DNA of 64,000 bases, taken from assembly GCF_900110215.1 (NCBI RefSeq), contig NZ_FOCX01000006.1:62001-126000 (forward strand), given 5' to 3'. Each line of letters opens with the position of its first letter. Positions within the stretch are counted from its first letter, which is position 1. Below are positions 50,328 through 64,000 of the stretch, piece after piece. Under the pieces are notes generated by a model. That model did not search any database and was not told the DNA's origin. It saw only the letters and a program-made list of their open reading frames with translations. A program made the position numbers and the translations under genes. This DNA comes from Halorientalis persicus. Lineage in GTDB: Archaea > Halobacteriota > Halobacteria > Halobacteriales > Haloarculaceae.

Positions 50328-51890
50328 ATGGTAGCAGGGACGCGGCGGCCGGGAACGCGCGCACAATCCGGGCCGATCGGCTACGTCCTCGTGTTCGCCA
50401 TCGTCATGGCCGGGATGGCGATCATCGTGCTCATCGGCGTCGGTGGACTCTCGGAGACCCAATCCCAGTCCGAAATCCAGCGCGCCGAACACTCGATGAC
50501 GCTTTTCGACTCCCGGGCAGCGATGGTCGCGCTGGGCGATTCCAACGGACAGACGATCTCGTTCGGGCAGGGCGGCGGTACGTTCTCGGTCCAGGACGAG
50601 TCCGGGTGGATGCGTATCGTCCACAACAACTACTCCGAAGACGACGACGACGAGCGCGAGGTGATCTACAACAAGTCGCTGGGTGCGTTGCTCTACGAGA
50701 ACGGCGACCAGTCGCTGGCATACCAGGGGGGCGGCGTCTGGCGGCACGCCCCCGACGGCGAGGCCCGCATGATCTCCCCACCGGAGTTTCACTACCGGGG
50801 CGCGACGCTGACGCTTCCGATCATCCGTACGCTCGGCGGCGGCAACGCCAAGGGGAGCGTCGACGTCTCGATCCAGCCACAGACGCAGGCCGATCTGGTC
50901 TTCCCCGCCAGGTCGCCGCCGACCGTCGGCGACGAGATCGGCGTCCCCTACAACGGCACCGAGCGCAACTACACGAACCCGATCCGCAACGGGACGGTCA
51001 ACGTCTCCGTTCGGAGCGACTACTACGAGGCCTGGGCGACGTACTTCCGGGAGCGAACGACCGGCGAAGTCACCGTGTGGGACAGCAACCGAACCGTCCG
51101 CCTCCAGTTGAAGTCCATCGGCGGCCCGCCCGGGTCCTTCACCATCCCCGAAGAGGGTGAGAGCGTCCCGGCGGACGGGATCGCCGAGGGGCACCCGCTC
51201 AAAACGTTCGAGTTCGACATCGTCTACACCAACGGAAACAACGACCACTTCTCGCTGTACGACGAGCAGAACAATCAGGAGTACGAGTTACACGTCCTCC
51301 CGACGGGGAACAACTACCACAGTAGCTGTCCGGGCTCACCGCCGGACTCGGACGTGTACGTCGGGATGTACTACTACTCCGGTGACGGCTCCGGCGAGTA
51401 CGAGTACTGGGAGGCCGAGATCGACCCCTCGAACAGCGCGATCAGCTGGAGCTGTACCAGCGACGGCCCGCAACTGTCGATCGATATGCTCTCCGATTCT
51501 GTCGACATGGACTACGACCAGGACGCGCCCGGGATCAGTTGCGGGAACGGCGGCAACAAGTGGCGCTTCGGTGAGAACATCAAGTGTGACTACTCCCACG
51601 GCGACGCGACGCTCGACCAGCACGCTGGGGCCGGCGTCGGCTGGGAGCCGACCGTTCAGTACTCCGCGGGAGACACCGCGACCGGGCGCACGCTCGACGA
51701 AATCGTCAACCACTACACCTCGGTGATGGGCCCCGACATCGACATGACCTCACAGATGGGGCCGGGGAACAGTCGTGCCATCGTGCAGGACGCCTCCTCG
51801 GGGACGCTCACCTACGAGACCGCGAGCGGCGCGGAGTACATCACGTACCTCCACGTGACGGAAAACGAGATCGCGGTCGACTTCGACTAG
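50328..51890 (+). CDS. pilin-like protein with long extracellular tail (module 1, long gene)
   Basis: The 520-residue protein begins RRPGTRAQSGPIGYVLVFA, an archaeal pilin-type leader (cleavage would fall before Q or S) followed by one hydrophobic helix (about 16-40). It shares two motifs with three other proteins of the locus: GGVWR followed by SPPEFHYR (about 138-158), and EAWATYF (about 233). After the second motif comes a tail of about 275 residues (Cys, Tyr, Asp and Gly-rich: GNNYHSSCPGSPPDSDVYVG, SWSCTSDG), ending with DEIVNHYTSVMGPDIDM. It resembles haloarchaeal DUF7289-type proteins (by memory). The tail may be an adhesin or tip domain. It converges on the five-gene minus-strand operon with a four-base overlap. 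Confidence 0.8.
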   Translation: MVAGTRRPGTRAQSGPIGYVLVFAIVMAGMAIIVLIGVGGLSETQSQSEIQRAEHSMTLFDSRAAMVALGDSNGQTISFGQGGGTFSVQDESGWMRIVHNNYSEDDDDEREVIYNKSLGALLYENGDQSLAYQGGGVWRHAPDGEARMISPPEFHYRGATLTLPIIRTLGGGNAKGSVDVSIQPQTQADLVFPARSPPTVGDEIGVPYNGTERNYTNPIRNGTVNVSVRSDYYEAWATYFRERTTGEVTVWDSNRTVRLQLKSIGGPPGSFTIPEEGESVPADGIAEGHPLKTFEFDIVYTNGNNDHFSLYDEQNNQEYELHVLPTGNNYHSSCPGSPPDSDVYVGMYYYSGDGSGEYEYWEAEIDPSNSAISWSCTSDGPQLSIDMLSDSVDMDYDQDAPGISCGNGGNKWRFGENIKCDYSHGDATLDQHAGAGVGWEPTVQYSAGDTATGRTLDEIVNHYTSVMGPDIDMTSQMGPGNSRAIVQDASSGTLTYETASGAEYITYLHVTENEIAVDFD

Positions 51891-52639
51891 GTCTCGAACT
51901 CGAAGTTGATCAGGGTCCGCGTGACCGACAGCCGCTTCGGATCGTCGATCCGACACTGGACCGTCTCCGGGCGGGTTATCTTGCAGGTGGCGTCGGCGTC
52001 GTCTTCGAGGTAGCGCCGCCAGAGCCGGTACCGCGGCGAGGTAACGTTGACGATCAGGGCGTCGTAGTCGGCCTGCCGCTGGACGAATTCGGGCAACGGT
52101 TCCCGGACCGCCCGTTCGGCCCGGACTCGGACCGTACCGCCGCTGACGCTCGTGGCGTTGCCCATCTGCTTGGTCTGGATGATCGGGATGATCACTTCGC
52201 CGTCCGTGAACCGGAACGGTGGCTCCTGGCTGACGACGCCGCCCTGTGGCGAGTCACGGAAGACGGCACCGCCCTCGTAGACGATGGCCGTATCGCTGCG
52301 CCCCTCGTACATGATCGGCGTCGCCGAGTAGGAGACGTTCGGATTCTCTCCGCCCGGATCGACGCCGGTGACGTTGATTCTGATAGGTGACCGAACCTCC
52401 AGCCGTGCGTTGTCGAGTTTGATCTCGGTCGAACGGCTCGGCGCACCCTCCTGGTGGATGTCGGTCATGTTGTCCGCGAGCACGTCGAAGGCTCGCTCGG
52501 CGTTGTTCACCTGCTCGGCGTCGCGCGCGTCCTGTAAGATGCTGATGCCGCTGACCGAGACGATACCCACGGTCGCCGCGACCAGCGAGAACACGATCAC
52601 GAATCCGATCACGTCGCTCACTGCACGGTTTCGGCTCAT
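51887..52639 (-). CDS. pilin-like protein, last gene of module 1 operon
   Basis: The 250-residue protein has a pilin-like start, RNRAVSDVIGFVIVFSLVA, with a single helix (about 7-32) after a short basic leader. The body carries the shared motifs GGAVFRDSPQG with PPFRF (about 126-145) and RLWRRYL (about 206). It lacks a long tail. Its ATG overlaps the upstream gene's stop. Counterpart in module 2: 61181-61993. A structural minor pilin is likely but unproven. Confidence 0.8.
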   Translation of the reverse strand: MSRNRAVSDVIGFVIVFSLVAATVGIVSVSGISILQDARDAEQVNNAERAFDVLADNMTDIHQEGAPSRSTEIKLDNARLEVRSPIRINVTGVDPGGENPNVSYSATPIMYEGRSDTAIVYEGGAVFRDSPQGGVVSQEPPFRFTDGEVIIPIIQTKQMGNATSVSGGTVRVRAERAVREPLPEFVQRQADYDALIVNVTSPRYRLWRRYLEDDADATCKITRPETVQCRIDDPKRLSVTRTLINFEFET

Positions 52640-53112
52640 GTCGATTCGTCCTCCAGTGCGAGTTCGTCGCTCGCGGTGTAGTTGACCGCGATGGTTCCGC
52701 CGGACACCGACGACGACTCGATCGGCGTCGACGTTTTCACGGGGACCCTGACGGCGATCTCGGGATCGGTCGTCCGAACCACGACCTGCGGGTCGGTCCC
52801 GCCGTCGAACCTGACCTCGTAGGTGCTTCCGGCCACGCGTGCCGGAAGGTCGCGACCGACCTGCACCGACTCGTTGTCGCTCGTCGTCTCCACCAGCCGG
52901 TCGGCCATCTCCACGTCGGAACTCACCTGTTCGGCCAGCACTTCCAGTTCCGTCTCGATGCTCTGATCGCGCTGGTTCTCGACGAACGTCCCGCCCGCCA
53001 ACAGCAGACCCGTGACTAGGATGAGCGCGATGGCCAGCCCGAGCACGTAGTTCAGCGTCGTCGAGACGCCGCGGTCGTCACGCGTCGCCGTCCGCTTCGC
53101 TCCCTCAGTCAT
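52636..53112 (-). CDS. pilin-like protein, fourth gene of module 1 operon
   Basis: The start is the ATG at 53112 (MTEGAKRTATRDDRGVSTTLNYVLGLAIAL); a GTG nine bases up is possible. The 158-residue product has a basic leader ending in DRG, then a hydrophobic helix (about 17-38) and a beta-rich, acidic outer part. It looks like DUF7266-type haloarchaeal proteins (by memory). Its counterpart in module 2 is 61995-62453: both have DVNEV/ELEVL-type helices after the membrane segment and RDLPARVAGSTYEVRF or VSLPSRVGGGGYNIEL, clearly the same fold. It overlaps the previous gene by 8 bases. Confidence 0.82.
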   Translation of the reverse strand: MTEGAKRTATRDDRGVSTTLNYVLGLAIALILVTGLLLAGGTFVENQRDQSIETELEVLAEQVSSDVEMADRLVETTSDNESVQVGRDLPARVAGSTYEVRFDGGTDPQVVVRTTDPEIAVRVPVKTSTPIESSSVSGGTIAVNYTASDELALEDEST

Positions 53113-54061
53113 CGCTCTCACCCGGGTGTATCCGCGTATCGGTCGCGTACGACAGCGACGTGGACTGGTACTCGACGTGGACCGTCGCCGCGTAGACCGC
53201 CGGCAGTGCGAACGGCACGTCGGGCGCTGTCCCGTAGTTGTCGTGCTCGATGTCCGTACTGTCGATCACTTCGTCCACCACCAGCGAGTAGGTGCCCTGG
53301 AACTGTCGACCGTTCTCGACGGCGATGGTGTAGGGCGTCGAGATACCCTCACCGTACTCCAGCGCCGGACAGTCCGTTCCATTGATTGTCCCCGCCGTCA
53401 GTCCGATGGTGGGGTCGGACCCAGCCGAACAGACGCGCGACGGCCCCGAAGGCGGGTCGGCCCTGATCGCGGTCGTCGTGCCGGCGCTGTTGTTCTTGAA
53501 CAGCGTGAGCGTCCAGGGCGTGCCGTCGGTAACCTGCACCTCCAGGGGGTCGTTGGACGACAGGGCCAGTTCCGAGGAGTCGGTCACGTTGATCCGTGCC
53601 GAGCGCGTTCCCTCGACGCCCGTGGCGATCGTCCAGTCGCTGGCCACGTCGGCGCTGGCCGGCACGGTCGAGTTCGTGAAGTTCCCCGTCGTCCGATTCT
53701 GGCCGATACGGGTCCCCCACTCGACCGAGACCAGCGTCGCGTTGGCACTGATCCCGCGCAACACCTGAAACTGTGCGGCCCGACGACTCGTCGAGACGAC
53801 CGCCCGCGAGAGTTTGTCCCGAAGCACCGGCTGTGTCGAGCCGTTCCGATTGACCGACTCGACCATCGACTCCAGCCCGTCGGCCACGTCGTTGCGGTAG
53901 CTGATCGCGTCCCCGCCGCCGGCGTCGTCCCCGCGGGTGGCGAGGTTTTCAGTGTAGATGACGGAGTTCAAGACCAGCGTCAGCGCGACGAACGACGCCG
54001 CGAGGACGAACCCCGCGACCAGCAGGACCTGCGCACGGTCGTCGCTTCTCAGATCCGCCAC
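53105..54061 (-). CDS. pilin-like protein, third gene of module 1 operon
   Basis: It starts with a GTG at 54061 (MADLRSDDRAQVLLVAGFVLAA). The 318-residue protein has a pilin-type helix (about 10-33), then a helical neck (NDVADGLESMVESV) and a beta-rich outer domain with Asn-X-Ser/Thr sequons (NATLV, NRTTGNFTNST). It ends with YAATVHVEYQSTSLSYATDT. It resembles DUF7261-type proteins (by memory); the counterpart is 62450-63421, whose N-terminus (DDERGQLLLVGAATIALVIVG) is alike. It overlaps the second gene by 13 bases. Confidence 0.82.
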   Translation of the reverse strand: MADLRSDDRAQVLLVAGFVLAASFVALTLVLNSVIYTENLATRGDDAGGGDAISYRNDVADGLESMVESVNRNGSTQPVLRDKLSRAVVSTSRRAAQFQVLRGISANATLVSVEWGTRIGQNRTTGNFTNSTVPASADVASDWTIATGVEGTRSARINVTDSSELALSSNDPLEVQVTDGTPWTLTLFKNNSAGTTTAIRADPPSGPSRVCSAGSDPTIGLTAGTINGTDCPALEYGEGISTPYTIAVENGRQFQGTYSLVVDEVIDSTDIEHDNYGTAPDVPFALPAVYAATVHVEYQSTSLSYATDTRIHPGESDD

Positions 54062-54630
54062 ACGACCACCTCCACGCGGACCACGTCGAAGACTGGTCCC
54101 TCGCCGTTCTTGTCGGCGTAGAAGTTCGAGTTGTTCACTCGCGGCCCGCGAGTCATGTTCTCGTGCAACAGCCGAGTCTCGTTCGCGATGACCACGGTCT
54201 TGCCCGCCGACACCGCGTTGTCGGTCGGTTCCCCTCGGTAGAGGATCGGCTTGCGCTGGGGCCGCCCGGATTTGTAGTAGGTCACGTAGACGTTGTACGC
54301 GATGCCGCGGTCCCCGAACGTCTGCTGGAGCCTCCGGCCAAGCTCCGTCGGCAGCTTTCTGGTGTAGAACCCGTTGACGGTCGCACCGTGGAACCGACTC
54401 TCCGTGCTGTTCCAGTACAGCACCGTCTCGCGCAACGAATCGTTCCGGGCCGCCGTCGCCAGCACGCCCGCGGCGCTGGCTTCTTGCTGGTTCTCGATGT
54501 GCTGGCTCGACGTACTCGCCGACAGCGGCGTCACCGCCGTCATCTGGAGCGCGAAGACGATGCTCGACATCAGCAACAGCCCCGCGACGATGGCCTCCAG
54601 CGTGTGGACCTGCCCGCGCTCGCTCACCAT
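54049..54630 (-). CDS. pilin-like protein, second gene of module 1 operon
   Basis: The 193-residue protein starts MVSERGQVHTLEAIVAGLLLMSS, with the leader ending in ERG and the helix at about 7-30. The C-terminus is VVRVEVVVWRI, matching NIVEVRIVAW of the module 2 counterpart (63415-64000). Both also share a QTF/NVYF(V/R)Y and RKPILYRGEPTDNAVSAGKTVVIA or EAVSQETGDPQSLIAPSDTAVVAS middle region. It looks like DUF7288-type proteins (by memory). It overlaps the first gene by 7 bases. Confidence 0.82.
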   Translation of the reverse strand: MVSERGQVHTLEAIVAGLLLMSSIVFALQMTAVTPLSASTSSQHIENQQEASAAGVLATAARNDSLRETVLYWNSTESRFHGATVNGFYTRKLPTELGRRLQQTFGDRGIAYNVYVTYYKSGRPQRKPILYRGEPTDNAVSAGKTVVIANETRLLHENMTRGPRVNNSNFYADKNGEGPVFDVVRVEVVVWRI

Positions 54631-55247
54631 AGTTTCACCACCAGCGAGACGCTGGTCCCGTTGATCGACACCGAGCGCCGTGCGGTCACCGACGACTGGG
54701 CCCCCGATGCGGCATCGTCGCCGACCGCGAGCGTCTCCACGTCGGTCCCGGTGCAGTCCGTCGTACCCTGTTCGACCAGCTTCCCGGCTGTCTCGTCCCA
54801 GCAGAGCAACTCGTTGGGCGAGCTCGATCCGCTCACGTTCCCGCGAAGCGTGACGTTGAGGAACGCACTGTCGGTCACGCCGACCTGTTCTCTGAGGGGC
54901 GGGCTCCCGAACCGACAGTCCGGGGGTGGGCTCCCGCCCTCGAAAAACGCGACCGTACAGTCCGCGTCCAGGATGTAGGGCGTGTCCGGATCGCCGAGCG
55001 TGTCTTTTGCCAGCCCGTCGGCGACTCTGTTGACCGCCACGATGTCCTCCTGATCACCGGCGGTGAACGGCTGAATCGTTCCCGCCACGAACGCGAAAAT
55101 CGCGACCAGGACGAACACGAACAGCACGACACCAGTCGTGAAATCGAGCGTGGTCTGTGCGCGGTTCCGGTTCCCGCTCGTCATTTCGACCGACGGTCGG
55201 TCCGAGCCCGACTCGCGGCTATCGGCTGTGCCGTCCCGATCGGACAT
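54624..55247 (-). CDS. pilin-like protein, first gene of module 1 operon
   Basis: The start is uncertain. An ATG at 55247 (MSDRDGTADSRES) is used, and an ATG at 55184 (MTSGNRNRAQTTLDF) would give a more pilin-like N-terminus. The membrane helix is TTGVVLFVFVLVAIFAFVAG (about 36-56 from the first start), followed by IVAVNRVADGLAKD and a beta-rich outer part with four cysteines. It ends with SVSINGTSVSLVVKLW. It resembles DUF7287-type proteins (by memory). The module 2 counterpart would lie beyond the right edge of the window. A TATA-like box is at 55391-55399. Confidence 0.78.
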   Translation of the reverse strand: MSDRDGTADSRESGSDRPSVEMTSGNRNRAQTTLDFTTGVVLFVFVLVAIFAFVAGTIQPFTAGDQEDIVAVNRVADGLAKDTLGDPDTPYILDADCTVAFFEGGSPPPDCRFGSPPLREQVGVTDSAFLNVTLRGNVSGSSSPNELLCWDETAGKLVEQGTTDCTGTDVETLAVGDDAASGAQSSVTARRSVSINGTSVSLVVKLW

Positions 55248-55390
55248 ACTCCAGCGTTTCATATGAATCTCGTCCGAATTCGGCCACACGATCGTCCGTT
55301 CGTGCTCACTTCTCGTCCCGCCGCCGACTGGGACTTTCGACTATCGTCACTCACGGAACTGGCGTAATAGGGGTTTTGGCCGTCGTTATT

Positions 55391-55399
55391 GGCATATAA
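55391..55399 (-). promoter_or_regulatory. TATA-like box before module 1 operon
   Basis: The plus-strand sequence GGCATATAACC reads GGTTATATGCC on the minus strand. The predicted transcript start would be near 55370, giving a leader of about 120 bases to the ATG at 55247. The box is near-symmetric. Confidence 0.45.
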
Positions 55400-55460
55400 C
55401 CGTTTTGGCCGACCCAACGTGTTGTGAGTTGTCTCCCCGTGGAGCAACTCCTTCGATGGG

Positions 55461-55467
55461 TTTAAGA
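55461..55467 (+). promoter_or_regulatory. TATA-like box of the tRNA-Ala gene
   Basis: TTTAAGA lies 28-34 bases before the first base of the tRNA, the usual place for an archaeal tRNA promoter. Confidence 0.65.
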
Positions 55468-55494
55468 AAACTCGACGGGTAGCGATGAGTGCGC

Positions 55495-55566
55495 GGGCTC
55501 GTAGATCAGCGGTAGATCATCCCCCTGGCACGGGGAAGGCCCGGGGTTCAAATCCCCGCGAGTCCA
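55495..55566 (+). tRNA. tRNA-Ala (anticodon GGC)
   Basis: A complete cloverleaf can be drawn by eye. The acceptor stem is GGGCTCG/CGAGTCC, with a G3-U70 wobble pair, the known alanine identity element. The D-stem is GATC/GATC, and the anticodon stem is TCCCC/GGGGA around a CTGGCAC loop, so the anticodon is GGC, reading GCC. The T-stem is CGGGG/CCCCG with TTCAAAT. The discriminator base is A (55566). There is no intron and no encoded CCA. Confidence 0.97.
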
Positions 55567-55655
55567 CTTCCGTTCCTTCCGTCGCTTCACTCGGTCAGTC
55601 ACTCGTTCCCTCGCGTGGTCCCACTCGCCCCGCTCGCGGGACCCCCGCGAGTCCA
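55554..55655 (+). repeat. 100-base repeat starting at the tRNA 3' end, copy 1
   Basis: The unit begins and ends with CCCCGCGAGTCCA, the last 13 bases of the tRNA gene. Inside is an 8-base stem CTCGCGGG/CCCGCGAG with a 3-base loop (55633-55651). Copy 2 at 55773-55872 is nearly identical, with roughly ten differences and a two-base gap. A third copy is cut off after about 20 bases (55867-55886). Confidence 0.85.
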
Positions 55656-55660
55656 TTATT

Positions 55661-55690
55661 CTGCGCCGCTCATCGTTCTGAGCGGCGCAG
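55661..55690. repeat. perfect 12-base inverted repeat (hairpin)
   Basis: CTGCGCCGCTCA (55661-55672) and TGAGCGGCGCAG (55679-55690) enclose a 6-base loop. The hairpin lies directly after repeat copy 1. It may be a terminator, or a relic of an element's end. Confidence 0.7.
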
Positions 55691-55702
55691 ATTGTCGTCG
55701 AT

Positions 55703-55718
55703 GCGGGGATTTGAACCC
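55703..55718 (-). pseudogene. inverted fragment of the tRNA T-arm
   Basis: GCGGGGATTTGAACCC is the reverse complement of the T-arm of tRNA-Ala, GGGTTCAAATCCCCGC. A plus-strand T-arm copy with one extra A (GGTTCAAAATCCCCGC) follows at 55763-55779, so the two face each other across about 45 bases. It is too short to be a tRNA. Confidence 0.7.
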
Positions 55719-55772
55719 TGGAAGTCGCAGCACCGAGCAGCGCGAGGTGACCGTCTTCCTCTGGTTCAAAAT

Positions 55773-55872
55773 CCCCGCGAGTCCACTCACTCCTTCCGTC
55801 GCTTCGCTCCGTCAGTCGTTCGTTCCCTCGCGTGGTCCCACTCGCTCGGCTCGCGGGACCCCCGCGAGTCCA
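55773..55872 (+). repeat. 100-base repeat starting with a tRNA 3'-end copy, copy 2
   Basis: Begins and ends with CCCCGCGAGTCCA like copy 1, contains the same CTCGCGGG/CCCGCGAG stem and is preceded by a displaced T-arm (55763-55772). Translations over both copies are low-complexity and are not treated as genes. Confidence 0.85.
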
Positions 55873-55992
55873 CTTCCGTTCCTTCGGCGTGTCCGACGCC
55901 AGTCGGGCGGCGCTTTCCACGCGTGGTCGAGGGACACCGATACCAGTGGTCGACCGGAATACACAACACGCCGTCGTCCGTTGGCACGTGGC

Positions 55993-56529
55993 ATGGGTGT
56001 GCTGAAAGACGTGGGACCGGCGGGACTGGTACCAGCGGCCTGGATCTTCGCCGCCGCGGCGGTTCTCGGGGTGGTCACGGCCCGGACCGTCCTGATCGCT
56101 ATGACAGTGATGAGCGTGTTACTCGTGATTTTCTTCGTGACGACGCTGTCGGAGATGACCGGTCCGGTCCTGAGCGCGTGGCAGCGTGTCCTGGCGGTCG
56201 GGGGCGTCGTCACCATCCTCGGGACGGTCGATCTGGTCGTCACGCCGGGGAGTGATCCGCTGGCCGCGCTGGCGCTGTACGCCTGGATCGTCCTCCCGGC
56301 GGCTGCTTACATCAGGACGTGGACAGCGATGTCGGGGCCCGCCTACCGACACGTCTATCTGGTGGGTGCGGCGCTGTCGCTCCTCGGACTCGGGCTGTTC
56401 GCGGCTGGTGGGGCCGCACTGCTGGGCGACGCGACGGTTGCGGTCGCGGGGCTGGCGGTCGTCGGACTCGGACAGACGGCTGGCATCGTGACGGCGGCAC
56501 TCCAGAACGGCGGACGGTTGGGGGCCTGA
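55993..56529 (+). CDS. multi-pass membrane protein between the two pilin-like modules
   Basis: The 178-residue protein starts at the ATG at 55993 (MGVLKDVGPAGLVPAAWIFAAA); longer frames run back over the tRNA-derived repeats and are not credible. About six hydrophobic segments can be seen (about 11-30, 34-54, 62-85, 88-105, 115-140 and 143-168). No family is recognised. It is the only gene between the tRNA repeat region and the 1311-residue pilin-like gene, and there is no match to it in the first module. Confidence 0.65.
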   Translation: MGVLKDVGPAGLVPAAWIFAAAAVLGVVTARTVLIAMTVMSVLLVIFFVTTLSEMTGPVLSAWQRVLAVGGVVTILGTVDLVVTPGSDPLAALALYAWIVLPAAAYIRTWTAMSGPAYRHVYLVGAALSLLGLGLFAAGGAALLGDATVAVAGLAVVGLGQTAGIVTAALQNGGRLGA

Positions 56530-56888
56530 TGTGGCGGCCACGACACTGCCGAGTCGCGTTTTGCCGTGTGTCCGGTACCGGCCCATGGAACCGACCAGAT
56601 GAGCCGAATCGTCGGACTTCCGGTCTCGGTCTGGCTGTACGATCGGCTTGCCGGCCGTGGTCTCGTTCCGCCGGCTTGAGAGGCCGGTGTCGAGGTGGGG
56701 TTCCCGTTCCGGGCCCGACACCCTGACTCCGGGTACTGCAACTCTCCACTTCGAAATCTGAGACTCCAACGGTCGGTTCCTTATCAGAAACCGAAATCGA
56801 GTAACTGGCTGTTTTTTAGATCCATACTGGGCACAGCGATCATAACTGTCGATGGGTTTTTATTCAACTACCGGGAATTAAAGGTGAT
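56530..56888. other. intergenic region with promoter of the 1311-residue gene
   Basis: The left 200 bases are GC-rich and without a convincing gene. The right part is clearly A/T-rich, unlike most of the window, and carries two TATA-like boxes (GTTTTTTAGA at 56811-56820 and GTTTTTATTC at 56856-56865). AAGGTGAT directly before the ATG is a ribosome binding site. The first box fits best, because it would leave a leader that contains that site. Confidence 0.6.
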
Positions 56889-59800
56889 ATGACAGCCCCA
56901 GGGGAAGGGATGCCAACGGGTGACAGAGCCGTCTCGCCAGTCGTTGGACTGGCGTTGCTCGTCGGCATCGTCGCGCTTGGTGCCCTCGTCGTCGTGGTTC
57001 TCGGTGGTAGTATCGTTCAGGATGTGAACAACCAGAACCAGGTCGAGGTCGCCGAACAGTCGATGCGCGAGATTTCGTCTCGCATCGACGATCTCGAGAA
57101 CAACAACCGGATGGCCTTCGAGTTCCCGTCGAATCTCGGCGGGGACGTTCGGACGATCGAACGGACGACGATCAATCTCTCCGTCGGTGAGAACGCAGAT
57201 GTCGCGAGTGGGGGGAACGTCTGTTACACCGGGCCAATCTCTATCGGCACACTACTCGCGGAGACGGAAGAAGGCGATATAATCGGCTACGAGGCCGGTG
57301 GGGTCTGGCGCAAATCTTCACGTGGCAGCAGTTCTGTCGTGTCGCCGCCGGCGCTCAACTACCGTGAGGGCCAGATCGGCATCAAACTCGCGGACTTCGA
57401 CGGCCACATGAGTGATTCCGATCGACTCGTCGCGACCGTCAACGAGTCGGGCTCACAGCTGAAAAACGAGTACCTGCAGAAGGCACTGCTGACCGACAAG
57501 AACTTCGAGGAAATCGAGGCCAACCCGGGTGTGACGCCGTCCGACATCACCTGTGATCCGCGGGTGTTGTCCAACATGACGGTCTCGATCCAGAACAGTC
57601 CGTTCGCGACGGCCTGGCACACGTACGCCAAGCGGAACTTCTCACCGGATCGGACGACCATCGAGACACCCGATTCGACCGTCGACGCTGGCGAGAACGT
57701 CTCGATCACCTTCACAATCGGCGAACGGGTTGAACCTACCTACGTCGTCGAAGACCCGCCGGCACTCGTGGCCTACCAGACGAACACGGACTCGGAGGAT
57801 TTCTGGGTCAACGCGACGGTGAACAACACCGGTCGACTGACCGGCGCACAGAACGTGACGCTCGACTGGTACAGCAAGGGCGGCGGCTCGTGGACCCTCG
57901 AAGCGTCGAACGTGACCGGATACAGGAACCTCTCGCTGCTGAACAACCAGAACGTCACCCTCCCGTTCCGGGTCGAGCACGACAACCTCACCAGCGGGAA
58001 CACCTACAGATACAGTCTCGACACCGGTGATCAGGTCCGGAACGGGACGGTGCAGATCGTCCCGTCGACCGGCGATCTCACGATGTTCGAGACCACGATC
58101 ACGGACGCACCCGCGAGTATGCAGGCGTCCGACAGCGAGACTATCACGGCCGAGATCACGAACACGGGGACAGTCGAGGCGACCAAGACCGTCGAGTTCA
58201 CCTTCCCCGACGCCGATGGTTCGGATCGGACGGTTCTCGAATCGCGGGAACTCACTCTCTCGGCAGGTGGGACCCGCACTCTCACCTACGACATTCCGAC
58301 CTACCTGCAGGGGAACCTGAACGCGACGTTCGCGGTCGACAACCGTCGCAGTCCGGCCGAAATCGACTCGACCGATATTCTGATCGGAGACAACGAGTAC
58401 TTCGGCATTCAGGGGACGACACCGCCGAGCGGCAAGGCGGTGGTCGTCGGCGACGACTTCGACATCAGTACGACCGTGAAAAACGAAGGGAGCTCCGGTG
58501 GGAAACAGGATATCGAGCTCTACGTCCGCAACGAGAGCGGGGTCGTGGTCACGACCGAGACCAAGACGAAAACGATCCCCAGCGGTAGCACACAGACGAT
58601 CTCCTTCGACGACCTCGAAGTCGACGAGGGCGGTGTGCACACGTACGAGGTCGTCACCAAAAACGAGTCTGCCACCGGGAGTTTCACTGCCGGTGACAGC
58701 GAGGCGGCGTACTTCCTCGTTCAGGAGGCCGGTGCGGTACCGGACCCGGTCGAACCGGAGGAGTCGCTGAACGTCTCTGCGCTGATCGTCAACACGGGCG
58801 TGGCCAACGGGTCGATGTCGTACTCGATCGCGTTCGACGGGACGACGATCAGTTCGGGGACGGAGTGGCTCGACGTCGACAACGAAACCGTCGTCGAGGG
58901 GTCCTACGAGATTCCGTCGGGGACCAGTAACGGGACGTATCCGGTCACAGTCTCGACAGACAACATGACGCTGACTCAGGATGTCTACGTGACTGAGAAT
59001 GTCCCCGACAGTCCGGGAATCGGTGACGACAACGGCACGTCGATCGGCATCACGCGGAACATGACGATCAGCCTGACGGTCGAAGGGACTGCGCTGACGG
59101 GTCTCTCCGATAACACGCAGGCCGGGTACGACGGGAGCTACGACATCTTCCGTAGCCCTATCGAGATGTACGTCGCGCTCCAGAACGACTCGAACCCGGA
59201 CGGGATCGACAGACCGTGGGGGACCCAGGACATGAATACGCCGACGAAGCGCGTCCTCCAGATGCAAGACGATCCGTCGCTCAACTACACTACGACGGTC
59301 GGTGCCGGAACGAACGTCTCCGTGTTCGCGAAATCCTATACGTGTGGTGGCGGAGAGTTCATCCGACCCGGCAACTACGAGGACGTCGACATTCCCGAGA
59401 ACGGAGATGGATACAGGTGGATCCCGAATCCGGATCGAGGGGAGTGGGGAGAGCCGAACTGGGTCACCGCCGACCGCCTCGTCTGTACCGACTGGGTGAA
59501 CCCGTGGATCGGGATCAGCCAGAGCCAGAACCCCTCGAATCTGGTGATCAAGAAAGACGGTGAGCGGGTCCCCGGCTTCGAGGCCGCCAGCGAGGACCAG
59601 CGGAGCGTCGCCGAGATCATCGAGAACCACACGACGCCCAACGGGCGGTTCGACCTGCGGGAGAACGAGCGCGTGCTGATGTACGAACTCTCCGAGGCGG
59701 ACGCCGATCCGGACAACGCGTACTACGCTGGCGACCCGGACTTCAACGACGCCGTCGTGCTCTTCCGGGCGCTGAACACGTCGACTGACCCGTCGGCACC

Positions 59801-60824
59801 CGGCGATCCGGTGCTCCAGATCAACGACACCGACGCGCCCGCGAAAGTCGCGCCGACCGACACGCCCGAGGTGAACGTCACCGTCGGCAACATCGGAACG
59901 GCCCCCGACACGACAAACGTGACGCTTGCCGTCGACGGGACCGTCGAGGCGACCGAGAGTAGCGTCAACGTCTCTGAGGGCGAGACCAAGACCGTCTCGC
60001 TCGAAGCGCCGACGATGGCACCCGGGGCCCACACGCTGACGATCAATCTGAGCGCGAACAACGAGAGCGTCACCCGGAGCATCTACGTCGGGACCTCTTC
60101 GTACGACGCCTTCGTCGTCAACGTCGACTCCTCGGCGACCGACACGGTCGTCGAGCAGACCGACACCTTCACCATCGCCGCCGAGGTGACCAACGTCGGG
60201 TCGATCTCCGGGACACAGGACATCGACTTCACTGCGACGCCGGAATCCGGGACCGTCGCAGTCGGTGACTCCACCCAGACCAGAAGCGGTCTCACGCTCT
60301 CGCCCGGGCAGACGAAGACGGTCCAGATGACGTTCGATCCCGACGACAACACACGCGGGCGGTTCGAAGTCGCGGTGTCATCGGCCAACACCACTTCGAC
60401 AGTGGATGTCAACGTCGAGGAGCCGCGACTGCGGATCGACGGGGCCTACGTCGGCGTGACCAAACTCGAACCCGGGGCCCGGACGGATCTGGACGTGGCA
60501 CCGCAACGCCTCGACATCGTGGTGAACAATCCGGAACTGATCGCCGAGTCTGGTTCGCTCTCGGTGAAACTCTGGGAGGGGACTAGCCCGAGCGGAGCAC
60601 CCGATATCGACAAGAGCAACTCCGTTCAGGTTCGGGCCGGTGCGGACATCTCCACCGTCGACCTCGACACGACGCTTGATCCGGGCGTGTACGCTTACGA
60701 GATCTCGACGAGCGACGATACCGAGTCGGGGACGCTCTTCGTCCCCGACAACGCCCGGTCCCAGGCGTCGTTCGACACCGACCTGATCTCCATCGACGCG
60801 AACGTCATCGCGCTCGGCGGGTAA
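56889..60824 (+). CDS. giant pilin-like protein with CARDB-like repeats (module 2, long gene)
   Basis: The ATG at 56889 has a strong ribosome binding site. The 1311-residue protein begins with a pilin-type leader and helix (GDRAVSPVVGLALLVGIVAL, about 11-40). The family motifs follow: GGVWRKSSRG with SPPALNYR (about 137-160) and TAWHTYA (about 238). The rest is outside the cell: CARDB/Ig-like units near 290-395, 398-500, 504-605, 607-715, then a Trp/Cys-containing insert (718-970; TCGGGEF, WIGISQSQNP, VAEIIENHTT), and units near 975-1070, 1071-1178 and 1181-1300. Many Asn-X-Ser/Thr sites suggest N-glycosylation. No second membrane anchor is visible. It could be a stalk-like adhesin carried on a pilus; this is inference. 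Confidence 0.85.
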   Translation: MTAPGEGMPTGDRAVSPVVGLALLVGIVALGALVVVVLGGSIVQDVNNQNQVEVAEQSMREISSRIDDLENNNRMAFEFPSNLGGDVRTIERTTINLSVGENADVASGGNVCYTGPISIGTLLAETEEGDIIGYEAGGVWRKSSRGSSSVVSPPALNYREGQIGIKLADFDGHMSDSDRLVATVNESGSQLKNEYLQKALLTDKNFEEIEANPGVTPSDITCDPRVLSNMTVSIQNSPFATAWHTYAKRNFSPDRTTIETPDSTVDAGENVSITFTIGERVEPTYVVEDPPALVAYQTNTDSEDFWVNATVNNTGRLTGAQNVTLDWYSKGGGSWTLEASNVTGYRNLSLLNNQNVTLPFRVEHDNLTSGNTYRYSLDTGDQVRNGTVQIVPSTGDLTMFETTITDAPASMQASDSETITAEITNTGTVEATKTVEFTFPDADGSDRTVLESRELTLSAGGTRTLTYDIPTYLQGNLNATFAVDNRRSPAEIDSTDILIGDNEYFGIQGTTPPSGKAVVVGDDFDISTTVKNEGSSGGKQDIELYVRNESGVVVTTETKTKTIPSGSTQTISFDDLEVDEGGVHTYEVVTKNESATGSFTAGDSEAAYFLVQEAGAVPDPVEPEESLNVSALIVNTGVANGSMSYSIAFDGTTISSGTEWLDVDNETVVEGSYEIPSGTSNGTYPVTVSTDNMTLTQDVYVTENVPDSPGIGDDNGTSIGITRNMTISLTVEGTALTGLSDNTQAGYDGSYDIFRSPIEMYVALQNDSNPDGIDRPWGTQDMNTPTKRVLQMQDDPSLNYTTTVGAGTNVSVFAKSYTCGGGEFIRPGNYEDVDIPENGDGYRWIPNPDRGEWGEPNWVTADRLVCTDWVNPWIGISQSQNPSNLVIKKDGERVPGFEAASEDQRSVAEIIENHTTPNGRFDLRENERVLMYELSEADADPDNAYYAGDPDFNDAVVLFRALNTSTDPSAPGDPVLQINDTDAPAKVAPTDTPEVNVTVGNIGTAPDTTNVTLAVDGTVEATESSVNVSEGETKTVSLEAPTMAPGAHTLTINLSANNESVTRSIYVGTSSYDAFVVNVDSSATDTVVEQTDTFTIAAEVTNVGSISGTQDIDFTATPESGTVAVGDSTQTRSGLTLSPGQTKTVQMTFDPDDNTRGRFEVAVSSANTTSTVDVNVEEPRLRIDGAYVGVTKLEPGARTDLDVAPQRLDIVVNNPELIAESGSLSVKLWEGTSPSGAPDIDKSNSVQVRAGADISTVDLDTTLDPGVYAYEISTSDDTESGTLFVPDNARSQASFDTDLISIDANVIALGG

Positions 60825-61180
60825 CGTTCGCTGGCTATCCTCCGGTCGGAGATGTCCGCCATCCTCGCTGGCCGCGTCGGCGCTGGAATCCATCCCTCTT
60901 CTCGCTGTGATTCGTCCCGTCACTGGAACGGCTATACTTCCCGGCAGTGTGGACTGTCGTCGAGCGGGTTCGGTATCGTGGATCGGCGGTGGATCCCGGA
61001 CGGCCCATGGCTCCGAAGTGCAACGATTTCGGATGTCACGCTGGCCGTGACACAGTGTCCGATATGCCGGCCAACTGGTGCCTGATCCGAGCCTATCAGG
61101 TCTGGGGCACCTCGGCGTGCACCGAGAGAGCGCTGAGACGTGACACGGCAAAACCAGCGGAAACAACGGACCGTCAGGCG
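60825..61180. other. convergent gap, no gene recognised
   Basis: This 356-base gap separates two convergent genes. I see no strong hairpin or T-run and no frame with protein-like composition. In module 1 the corresponding genes overlap by four bases instead, so this stretch was inserted here or lost there. Confidence 0.5.
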
Positions 61181-61993
61181 TCAGTAGATCGTCGACAGTT
61201 CGATGACCGTCCGCCGGAGGAAGACGGTCCCACCGTGGTCCCCGCCTTCGTCCACCTTGCAGTAGAACTCCCCATCACGGGCGCTCTCTTCCCACCCACT
61301 ACGACTGAAGTACTGGTCCCAGGCGTCGGACGCGGCCATCTCCGACACGTTGATCGAGACGTTCCCCGCGTCTGTGGGCTGGAAGTACTGGTTGCCGTTC
61401 GGGTCCGGCCCCGGGAACAGCTTCGCCGAGCCCTCGTCGACGTGTTGCCCGACCAGCACGACTGAGGTCTGACCACCGAGGCTGATGTTCCCGCGGAGTG
61501 AGATCAGCGACAGCGTCGCCCGTTTCTCCGGTCGACACTCGAAGGTCGGTCGATGACGGACGAGTTGCCCCTGCCGGCCGAGCCGGAACAACCCGCCAAT
61601 CTCGTAGACGAACCGCGTCGGGACGTCTTTCGAATCCAGCACGAGTGCCCTGGGGTCGAGCGTCCGCTCGATGATCGGCGTTTCCGGGTCGGTCGTCGTG
61701 TTGTTGATCCGTACGAACAGTCTCGACTCGGTCGTCCGGAGCGAACTCCCGCCGAGTTCGACTTCGAGCGCCCGCCCGGGAATGTCCTCCTCGTGAATCT
61801 CCTCGTAGGTCTGGGCGACCCCCTGCATCGTCCGGTCGGCGCTGTTGGCCCTCTCGCCGGCCTGGAGGTCGTTGAGCGCGTCGAACCCGCTGATGTAGAC
61901 GAACCCGATCCCGCTGACGATGATCGCGAACGTGAGCGTGAACGCGACCAGATCCGACACCGCCCGTTGCCGCCGTGTGTCCCCGTCGAACAT
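61181..61993 (-). CDS. pilin-like protein, last gene of module 2 operon
   Basis: The start is the ATG at 61993 (MFDGDTRRQRAVSDLVAFTLTFAIIV). The 270-residue protein has the leader RQRAVSD as in its module 1 counterpart (RNRAVSD), a helix (about 10-34), the shared motifs IGGLFRLGRQG with RPTFECR (about 131-152) and DAWDQYF (about 224). It ends with FLRRTVIELSTIY, parallel to SVTRTLINFEFET. It follows the fourth gene by one base. Confidence 0.82.
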   Translation of the reverse strand: MFDGDTRRQRAVSDLVAFTLTFAIIVSGIGFVYISGFDALNDLQAGERANSADRTMQGVAQTYEEIHEEDIPGRALEVELGGSSLRTTESRLFVRINNTTTDPETPIIERTLDPRALVLDSKDVPTRFVYEIGGLFRLGRQGQLVRHRPTFECRPEKRATLSLISLRGNISLGGQTSVVLVGQHVDEGSAKLFPGPDPNGNQYFQPTDAGNVSINVSEMAASDAWDQYFSRSGWEESARDGEFYCKVDEGGDHGGTVFLRRTVIELSTIY

Positions 61994-61994
61994 A

Positions 61995-62453
61995 CTATCG
62001 CACCCCCGATTCGATCGTGATGCAGTCCTCGCCCGAATCGTACTTGACGCTCGTCGGGCCGCCCGAGAGTGCCCGCTCACAGACCGCCGTCTCGTTGCTG
62101 ATCTTGACCGGAACGGTGTACGTCGTCGTGTTCGTCCAGAGGACGACGTCGTTCTTGCCGTTGACGGCCAACTCGATGTTGTACCCACCGCCGCCGACCC
62201 GGGACGGGAGCGAGACGCTCGATCGGACATTGTACGGGTCCCCGGTGGTCGCGAGGTGGTCGACTTGGTGGATCTCGCTGATCAGTACCTCGTTCACGTC
62301 GGTGAGGCCCCGCTCGCTGACGCGTTCTTCCTGCCGGGTCACGAGCTGGCCGGCTCCGATGATCAGCCCCGAGATCAAGATCGCCGTGATCCCCAGCGTG
62401 AGTGCGTGGTTGAGGGCGATCGAGGCCGCGCGGGTGTCGCCCCGGAAGCTCAT
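61995..62453 (-). CDS. pilin-like protein, fourth gene of module 2 operon
   Basis: The 152-residue protein begins MSFRGDTRAASIALNHALTLG, with a helix at about 14-36 and then TRQEERVSERGLTDVNEVL, a helical neck, and a beta-rich outer part (SLPSRVGGGGYNIELAVNG) with two cysteines near the end. It is the counterpart of 52636-53112. Its start overlaps the third gene's stop by ATGA. Confidence 0.82.
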   Translation of the reverse strand: MSFRGDTRAASIALNHALTLGITAILISGLIIGAGQLVTRQEERVSERGLTDVNEVLISEIHQVDHLATTGDPYNVRSSVSLPSRVGGGGYNIELAVNGKNDVVLWTNTTTYTVPVKISNETAVCERALSGGPTSVKYDSGEDCITIESGVR

Positions 62454-63421
62454 GCGCCTCCCTCCTCGATCAGCGTCGTGTTGTACGTGATCCCCGGTCG
62501 CTCGTAGACGAAGGTGAACGCTGGGCGGTACACCGAAATCCGCTCCTTATCTGGGTTGTTCACCGCCGAGTATTCGCTGTCACTCCCGAACATATACGAT
62601 CCCTCCAGTGCCTGTCCGCGTGGGCCGTCGTATTTTGCGGAAATGTCGTAGGGACCGTCGACAGCCGACTCGAATTTCAGCTCATCCCACTGATTCCCGT
62701 TGACCGTTCCACTCCGGATGTCGATATCGACATTGTTCGTCGTGGTGAAGTCACTTCCCCCCTCCAGTCGAAGTATCGGTGGACCGGACGGGCTTTCCCT
62801 TACCTGAATCAGTTCGGTGTCGGAAGTCGTCTGACACGTAATCTGCATCGACCAGTAATCTGTCCCCGTCTTGTGATCCACCACGGTTACTCGGACGCCG
62901 GCACTGGTCCCACTACAGGAAAAGTCCTTGATCGTCAGATTAGCCGGACTGACCACGGACGCGTTCTCCGCAACGGGGTATGGGTCGTTGAAATCCGACG
63001 CTCCGAACGGGTGAGTAAAGCGGGTCGCAGGATTGGTTTCTTTGACAAGAACTCCCGATCCATCCATCTCAGACCTCTTTTTGTTCAAACTGACGTTCAC
63101 GTACGTCGCACTGTCGGCGAACGTCATGTTCGACAATCGGTTGCTGTAGATCGAGATGTTTTGCCGGATGGCCGTCTCGAAATTGACCAGCCCGGTGTCA
63201 TTGCGTACACGGTCGGCCATCTTCGACAGATCGCCCCGGACCATCTCCGCGGTGCGCTGGGCCTCGTCCGTGGCGTCGAAGTTCCCTTCGGTCCCGACCG
63301 TATCGGTGAACTTCAGTCCGTTGAGCAGGATGACGGAGCCGACGATGACCAGGGCGATTGTTGCCGCGCCGACGAGCAACAACTGCCCGCGTTCGTCGTC
63401 GGGGAGGCTCAAACTCACCAT
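62450..63421 (-). CDS. pilin-like protein, third gene of module 2 operon
   Basis: The start is the ATG at 63421 (MVSLSLPDDERGQLLLVGAATIALV); the frame upstream overlaps the second gene. The 323-residue protein has a helix at about 13-33, a neck (FDATDEAQRTAEMVRGDL) and a beta-rich outer domain with sequons (NISIY, NMTFA, NLTIK). It ends with RPGITYNTTLIEEGGA. It matches 53105-54061 in position, length and layout. It overlaps the second gene by 7 bases. Confidence 0.82.
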   Translation of the reverse strand: MVSLSLPDDERGQLLLVGAATIALVIVGSVILLNGLKFTDTVGTEGNFDATDEAQRTAEMVRGDLSKMADRVRNDTGLVNFETAIRQNISIYSNRLSNMTFADSATYVNVSLNKKRSEMDGSGVLVKETNPATRFTHPFGASDFNDPYPVAENASVVSPANLTIKDFSCSGTSAGVRVTVVDHKTGTDYWSMQITCQTTSDTELIQVRESPSGPPILRLEGGSDFTTTNNVDIDIRSGTVNGNQWDELKFESAVDGPYDISAKYDGPRGQALEGSYMFGSDSEYSAVNNPDKERISVYRPAFTFVYERPGITYNTTLIEEGGA

Positions 63422-64000
63422 GCGACGATTCGCACCTCCACGATGTTGTACAGGTCGGAGTTCGGCGCCACGTCGGGCATGAAGTACGGTCGCTGCTCCG
63501 ACCACTGCTCGACGGTTCTGGGCGCGTTACTGAACGTGTCACCGCAGGCCGTCCCGCTCGCGCCACTGATCCTGACCGGTTCGTCGTCGTAGATCGCCAC
63601 CGTCCGACTCGCGACGACGGCCGTGTCGGAGGGTGCGATGAGGCTCTGTGGATCGCCCGTCTCCTGTGACACTGCTTCGGACTCGATCTCGCCGTCTTCG
63701 GTCTGGTATCGGAAGTACACGTTGAAGCTGACGCTCTGATTGCTCAGCGACTGGTTTAACAGTCGCTCGAACTGGGTCGCGTCGTCGTCGAGTGTCGCGC
63801 CCTGGAAGCTCTGGGCACCGACCTGATAGCAGCGGACGATCTTGCTCAGGTTCCCGTCGTTGGCCGTCAGGGCCAGCACGTCCTCGGCTCTGGTCTCCAG
63901 GGCGCTGGTCTGCTCGCTCGTGTCGCTGGCCCACGGCCCGATATCGACGATCTGGAGGCCAAATACCAGCGACGTGAGGACGATGATCGCGGCGAAGACA
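63415..64000 (-). CDS. pilin-like protein, second gene of module 2 operon (5' end outside window)
   Basis: The reading frame is open from the stop at 63415 to the right window edge, so the start lies beyond it. The edge part encodes FAAIIVLTSLVFGLQIVDIG, a membrane helix like LLLMSSIVFALQMTAVT of the module 1 counterpart (54049-54630). The C-terminus NIVEVRIVAW is also the same type. The first gene of this operon is expected outside the window. Confidence 0.82.
   Translation of the reverse strand, partial: VFAAIIVLTSLVFGLQIVDIGPWASDTSEQTSALETRAEDVLALTANDGNLSKIVRCYQVGAQSFQGATLDDDATQFERLLNQSLSNQSVSFNVYFRYQTEDGEIESEAVSQETGDPQSLIAPSDTAVVASRTVAIYDDEPVRISGASGTACGDTFSNAPRTVEQWSEQRPYFMPDVAPNSDLYNIVEVRIVAW

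Follow-up and report, generated by a model that had tools for sequence, protein, structure and literature searches.

Two pilin-like gene sets and one PilB-PilC motor in Halorientalis persicus, and the apparent exchange of whole sets between haloarchaeal species

Haloarchaeal loci in which genes for a PilB-type ATPase and a TadC-like PilC protein accompany a set of pilin genes were modelled as type IV pilus (T4P) loci by Makarova et al. 2016 (PMC4858521), who described duplicated motor loci with single pilin sets and proposed a modular evolution with motors and pilin sets combining freely (PMC4858521). Here we analyse a 64,000-nucleotide stretch of Halorientalis persicus DNA (contig NZ_FOCX01000006.1, positions 62,001 to 126,000; hereafter the window), which holds two such pilin-like sets, module 1 and module 2 (Table 1). 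In each module five minus-strand genes (F to B) encoding DUF7287, DUF7288, DUF7261, DUF7266 and DUF7289 proteins are convergent with a long plus-strand DUF7289 gene (A), a doubling in matched order that a preliminary description of the window, made from the sequence alone, had correctly recognised. The genes for PilB and PilC adjoin module 2 only, and no motor is found beside module 1. We consider it likely that module 2 supplies the pilins of a T4P operon, that module 1 is a detached ancestral set, that both share the motor, and that sets are replaced as units.

The closest described system, the PilB4-type T4P of Haloferax in euryarchaeal clade 2 (PMC4858521, Fig. 4B), likewise combines a TadC-like protein and a PilB-type ATPase extended at both termini with several pilins of its own, one of which is prone to duplication, varies in length and has a single helix and beta strands. 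It differs, in a comparison made by description, in that a second complete set lacking a motor adjoins the locus studied here. PilB4-PilC4 is a named Haloferax pair, which in Haloferax gibbonsii is expressed, and lowered during virus infection (PMC12542753). The clade 4C haloarchaeal T4P (Haloferax PilB1; Halobacterium) has pilin families in common with the clade 2 system, but its ATPase is of a different lineage, which in our tree lies far from the PilB group to which this locus belongs. H. persicus itself has a further locus with PilB, PilC, DUF7289, DUF7266 and DUF7261 genes and no DUF7288 gene (C96:16000-34000, L017), which is probably of the PilB1 (clade 4C) type. In the Haloferax PilA pili, formed via PilB3-PilC3 in trans (PMC4858521), motor and pilins are also encoded apart, with several pilins per motor; there, however, single pilin genes are scattered, whereas here a whole six-gene set is detached.

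The preliminary description had expected a PilB-type ATPase, a TadC-like gene and the fifth minus-strand gene of module 2, and all three lie just right of position 64000, which makes module 2 an ordinary haloarchaeal T4P operon. The module 2 PilB scores above the cut-off for PilB3_C (33.1 vs 27) and just under it for PilB3_N (25.5 vs 27). The system is most likely of the PilB4 type, given an ATPase that carries extensions and is accompanied by pilins of its own, and DUF7289 resembles the duplication-prone arCOG02911 as published. The suggestion of an undescribed surface structure was thus mistaken, since such loci have been modelled as haloarchaeal T4P (PMC4858521), PilB4-PilC4 has been named (PMC12542753), and the families are present in Pfam as DUFs. 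The novelty lies in how the parts are combined: the motor is single and conserved, one set is detached and conserved, and the other is exchangeable, with cassette-wise swaps of whole sets. This is the converse of the duplicated motor loci with single pilin sets described earlier (PMC4858521). No paper on one motor with exchangeable whole pilin sets was found, which is not proof that there is none, and a literature search on the five DUF names returned nothing.

The genome (4.87 Mb) contains eight T2SSE-type ATPases, two DUF7288 genes and one PilB of the module 2 type. An assembly gap concealing a motor for module 1 was ruled out, as module 1 is internal to a 220-kb contig and this PilB is the only one of its type in the genome. 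In a class sample of 145 Halobacteria genomes, all 28 Haloarculaceae have exactly one PilB of this type (E <= 1e-150), whether they carry one, two or three sets. The single set of Haloarcula rara adjoins the single motor of this type, and in G002 the sole set found is ~1.4 Mb from the sole motor of this type. The single motor of the window probably serves both sets, which is the economical reading of these gene counts. In Halomicroarcula sp. SYNS111 (G146:C1:956690-959149) and Halorarius litoreus (G156:C1:3793898-3796060) the pilB beside an ancestral-type set has one TGA in the matched stretch, and both genomes also possess an intact PilB of this type next to a different set.

Alternatively, the module 1 products could be assembled by another PilB-PilC pair, for example a PilB3-like one acting in trans, and the two modules would then be independent pili. 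The genome has several further PilB-PilC loci, and the alternative keeps its standing because trans-acting, cross-complementing motors are documented in Haloferax, where PilB3-C3 acts on pilins encoded elsewhere and can substitute for PilB1-C1 (PMC4858521, PMC6491452). On the other hand, outside Haloarculaceae almost every ancestral-type set is linked to a PilB of this type, and the pairing of sole motor and sole set in Haloarcula rara also speaks for a motor of this type. We regard separate motors as unlikely.

That sets are replaced as units is suggested by comparison of the window with its congeners. In the PilB tree, which follows kinship, the window is joined by G058 (98/94), then by G086 (100/100) and G110 (100/100). 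On the concatenated linked pilins, an approximately unbiased (AU) test rejects two of these groupings, the window with G058 (p 3e-47) and all four genus members together (p 3e-108). In the DUF7288 tree, 19 detached Haloarculaceae sets form one group (85/90) within the ancestral type, and the motor-linked sets divide into type X, seen in the window, two congeners, Haloarcula and Halomicrobium, and type Y, seen in the congener G110 and others. G086 has a third, unlinked set of type Y. Between the window and G058, PilB and PilC are 94% identical, the detached pilins 65-85% and the linked pilins 32-45%, and at the DNA level an identity of 88.7% across 9.2 kb ends at the pilC stop. For the same pair, pilB and pilC have a synonymous divergence (dS) of 0.39-0.40, against 0.31-0.82 in module 1 and 0.9-1.25 in module 2, a jump that points to different DNA and not merely to faster protein change. 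Halorientalis pallida, the closest named relative by the E1 protein (94%), carries a module 2 very close to that of the window (81-85% DNA identity).

Variation confined to the linked set was ruled out by G106, where the detached set has been replaced. Compared with its genus, this genome has a PilB of 97-98% identity and linked pilins of 82-86%, and its detached set is at ~52% (other pairs ~90%). The foreign stretch is flanked by a tRNA-Ala that is intact (98.9%) and by the RecJ side (90.6%). In both comparisons, window with G058 and G106 with its genus, all genes within a set change jointly. Cross-species comparison showed a replacement of whole six-gene sets as units, with pilB-pilC conserved alongside; the exchange unit comprises all six genes, its borders being the pilC stop at one end and the tRNA-Ala or the RecJ side at the other. 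By composition, module 2 (GC 0.57-0.65) is like PilB-PilC (0.61-0.62), and was rejected as a foreign island on that ground. In bacterial type IV pili, variable pilin genes also stand beside conserved assembly genes and large domains are added to a pilin stem, but typically one or few pilin genes vary there, whereas in the present case the six genes of a set vary jointly.

An ancient tandem duplication followed by fast adaptive divergence of the motor-linked copy in place, with no exchange between lineages, would agree with the X-type sets being a family-level group and with the window, G058 and G086 staying one group in the concatenated tree (100/99). Such divergence is nevertheless improbable in our judgement: synonymous divergence is 2-3 times that of pilB/pilC, the break at the pilC stop is sharp, a Y-type set stands behind the same motor lineage in G110, the motor's branching order is rejected by the AU tests, and in G106 it is the detached set that has changed.

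The distribution of the sets was followed with DUF7288 genes counted as a proxy. DUF7288 is present in 138/145 Halobacteria genomes and normally single-copy; at least two copies were found in 19/28 Haloarculaceae genomes vs 4/117 other Halobacteria. The preliminary description had proposed such a count, and it had also put forward two variants, alternative or combined, an idea that stands in the sharper form of one motor, two sets and whole-set replacement between species. Matches of the DUF7287 profile were disregarded where it was polluted by frames overlapping pilC. Outside Haloarculaceae, 22/23 sets examined are linked to PilB-PilC, and the ancestral neighbourhood (Halorarius, Halomarina) reads Lrp, aminotransferase, PilB, PilC and F E D C B, converging on A, followed by tRNA-Ala(GGC), RecJ and S3Ae. 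The Haloarculaceae order is aminotransferase, PilB, PilC, a slot, tRNA-Ala, the ancestral-type set, S15, RecJ and S3Ae. The slot is empty in Haloarcula rara (pilC frame end 8011, tRNA 8193-8264, F frame from 8373; L099), holds other sequence without a pilin set in some Halosimplex and Halomicroarcula, and elsewhere, as in the window, H. pallida and H. marina, is occupied by a second set of pilin genes. In genomes whose two sets have become widely separated, tRNA-Ala and RecJ-S3Ae usually still accompany the detached set and the aminotransferase usually the linked one, which fits a tandem locus split later by rearrangement. The tRNA lies on opposite sides of the ancestral-type set in Haloarculaceae and in the outgroups, and in the first step the set was therefore either duplicated across the tRNA or rearranged locally. 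As judged from neighbourhood and tree, module 1 is the ancestral, class-wide kind of set, now detached from the motor.

The 3' end of the tRNA-Ala(GGC), AAATCCCCGCGAGTCCACT, recurs as an exact copy at 55769-55787 and as two more degenerate copies, within an 82-nt direct repeat (window 55550-55885). A similar repeat array is present in H. pallida (L081:7686-8052), and none in Haloarcula rara (empty slot) or H. marina. By their sequence and position the repeats look like integration scars at the tRNA, on the side of the exchangeable set.

Could module 1, having no motor of its own, be a decaying relic left once module 2 took over the motor? This is very improbable, as all six of its frames are intact, the detached set is retained in most two-set Haloarculaceae genomes, module 1 differs less than module 2 when the window is compared with its nearest congeners, and the module 1 ratio of nonsynonymous to synonymous divergence (dN/dS) of ~0.2-0.6, being below 1, indicates genes retained for a function under purifying selection.

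On the reading that we favour, PibD would cut the leaders of the pilin-like products, and the single PilB-PilC motor of this type would polymerise either set into a filament, on which the long, adhesin-like A protein would be displayed. The surface of the fibre could then probably be altered in a single step, a conserved set being retained next to a replaceable one; as to the selective cause of change, viruses or adhesion targets are our guess. Only tentatively, and with slightly less than even confidence, do we extend this to a general scheme of archaeal surface variation, in which one motor and a resident conserved six-gene set are accompanied by a neighbouring slot that exchanges co-adapted sets (X, Y or none) between species, a complete fibre being replaced at once. 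The natural series of ancestral single set, empty slot, X, Y and detached set makes the exchange unit visible, and the locus makes motor sharing and set compatibility directly testable. It further suggests a single co-adapted complex of six proteins of unknown function, with the large adhesin-like A proteins as the likely part for variable display.

Several points weigh against a shared motor and exchanged sets. Among named genomes, a more distant second PilB (66-67%) stands next to the second set in two Halomicroarcula and in Haloarcula pellucida, so that one motor is not universal in the family, and other PilB-like ATPases in the H. persicus genome could serve module 1. Assembly of either set by the motor is proposed from genomic data, and expression of module 1 is presumed. 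DUF7288 counts stand in for whole sets; the dS frames were taken from stop to stop, with overlaps blurring some values, and a dS near 1, as in module 2, is close to saturation. Finally, a Foldseek search with the E1 and A1 models against solved structures gave no credible match and no solved pilin, and the pilin identity of the products therefore rests on leader, helix, gene context and Pfam.

Table 1. Genes of the two modules, the tRNA between them and the genes to the right of the window.
Feature	Position	Strand	Description	Evidence
A1	50328..51890	+	520 aa; long convergent gene of module 1; DUF7289 pilin-like N-terminal part and DUF7308	Pfam DUF7308 2e-48, DUF7289 3e-26
B1	51887..52639	-	DUF7289 pilin-like protein, 250 aa	Pfam 3e-66; partner B2 1e-22
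C1	52636..53112	-	DUF7266 pilin-like protein, 158 aa	Pfam 3e-29; partner C2 3e-16
D1	53105..54061	-	DUF7261 pilin-like protein, 318 aa	Pfam 3.5e-8; partner D2 5e-9
E1	54049..54630	-	DUF7288 pilin-like protein, 193 aa	Pfam 6e-61; partner E2 3e-18
F1	54624..55247	-	DUF7287 pilin-like protein, 207 aa; first gene of module 1	Pfam 7e-36; partner F2 2e-5
tRNA-Ala (GGC)	55495..55567	+	Between the two modules; slot border in relatives	ARAGORN; same position beside detached set in most family genomes checked
A2	56889..60824	+	1311 aa; long convergent gene of module 2; DUF7289 N-terminal part and three CARDB stretches	Pfam DUF7289 3.5e-16, CARDB 1e-13
B2	61181..61993	-	DUF7289 pilin-like protein, 270 aa	Pfam 7e-34
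C2	61995..62453	-	DUF7266 pilin-like protein, 152 aa	Pfam 2e-19
D2	62450..63421	-	DUF7261 pilin-like protein, 323 aa	Pfam 2e-7
E2	63415..64047 (past window end at 64000)	-	DUF7288 pilin-like protein, 210 aa	Pfam DUF7288 6e-48
F2	64052-64669 (outside window)		DUF7287	Pfam 4e-33
PilC/TadC	64701-66737 (outside window)		678 aa, two T2SSF stretches	T2SSF 4.8e-28
PilB	66739-69282 (outside window)		847 aa ATPase	T2SSE 2.6e-31

The gene coordinates given in the preliminary description were right apart from small start-site details, and its gene-by-gene correspondence of the modules was borne out when the pairs were compared: each pair belongs to one Pfam family, and in an all-against-all BLASTP the positional partner is the best module 2 match for each of the five minus-strand genes. 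Unrelated pairs, which the preliminary description had named as a refuting outcome, were thus not observed. The partners are 22-34% identical (2e-5 to 1e-22), which makes the modules old paralogues or xenologues and rules out a recent duplication of the whole module. The order of genes is not due to chance, since it recurs across the class. Overlapping minus-strand genes had been reported for both modules; this is true throughout module 1, where all adjacent pairs overlap by 4-13 nt including the stop codons of the convergent A1 and B1, but B2 and C2 are separated by a 1-nt gap. A1 and A2 are related to one another (BLASTP 6e-6) and to the B genes, and A and B are thus paralogues within one family. 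The common part of A1 and A2 is the pilin-like N-terminal module only, to which DUF7308 is added in A1 and the three CARDB stretches in A2; from this domain content A2 is a probable adhesin-like pilin.

A charged short leader and a single N-terminal hydrophobic helix, with no further transmembrane-like segment, were found in 12/12 products, in line with the archaeal type IV pilin-like character proposed earlier. The R/G cleavage motif claimed for all of them fared less well in a crude scan, in which an R-A/G motif was plain in most products, but in E1 and E2 the predicted site did not fall on the conserved R[GA]Q motif, and in C2 it was not convincing. Matches to Pfam Pilin_N were below cut-off only. 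The genome has one prepilin peptidase match (PF06847, 34.3 bits vs cut-off 29.9). The A1 model has one 52-residue helix followed by mainly beta strands, and the E1 model has N-terminal helices and a sheet. A sequence profile of A matched Natrinema PilA2 only weakly (E 0.16). The products had been called a minor-pilin set in the preliminary description, but the set may contain its own major pilin. A likeness of the A1 C-terminal region to a leukocidin/hemolysin-family chain (weak profile match, E 0.024, poor alignment) was taken as chance.

A small multi-helix membrane protein is encoded at ~55992-56529 (+), between tRNA-Ala and A2, and in the same place in H. pallida. In G050 (L033:1900-8800) a DUF7289-type frame of 2296 aa lies beside an inverted, diverged partial pilin set, and to go by this predicted frame A genes can grow into giant proteins. 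The detached set of Haloarcula has two long A genes in tandem, of ~600 aa each (L040, L042, L044, L046, L050, L058, L059).

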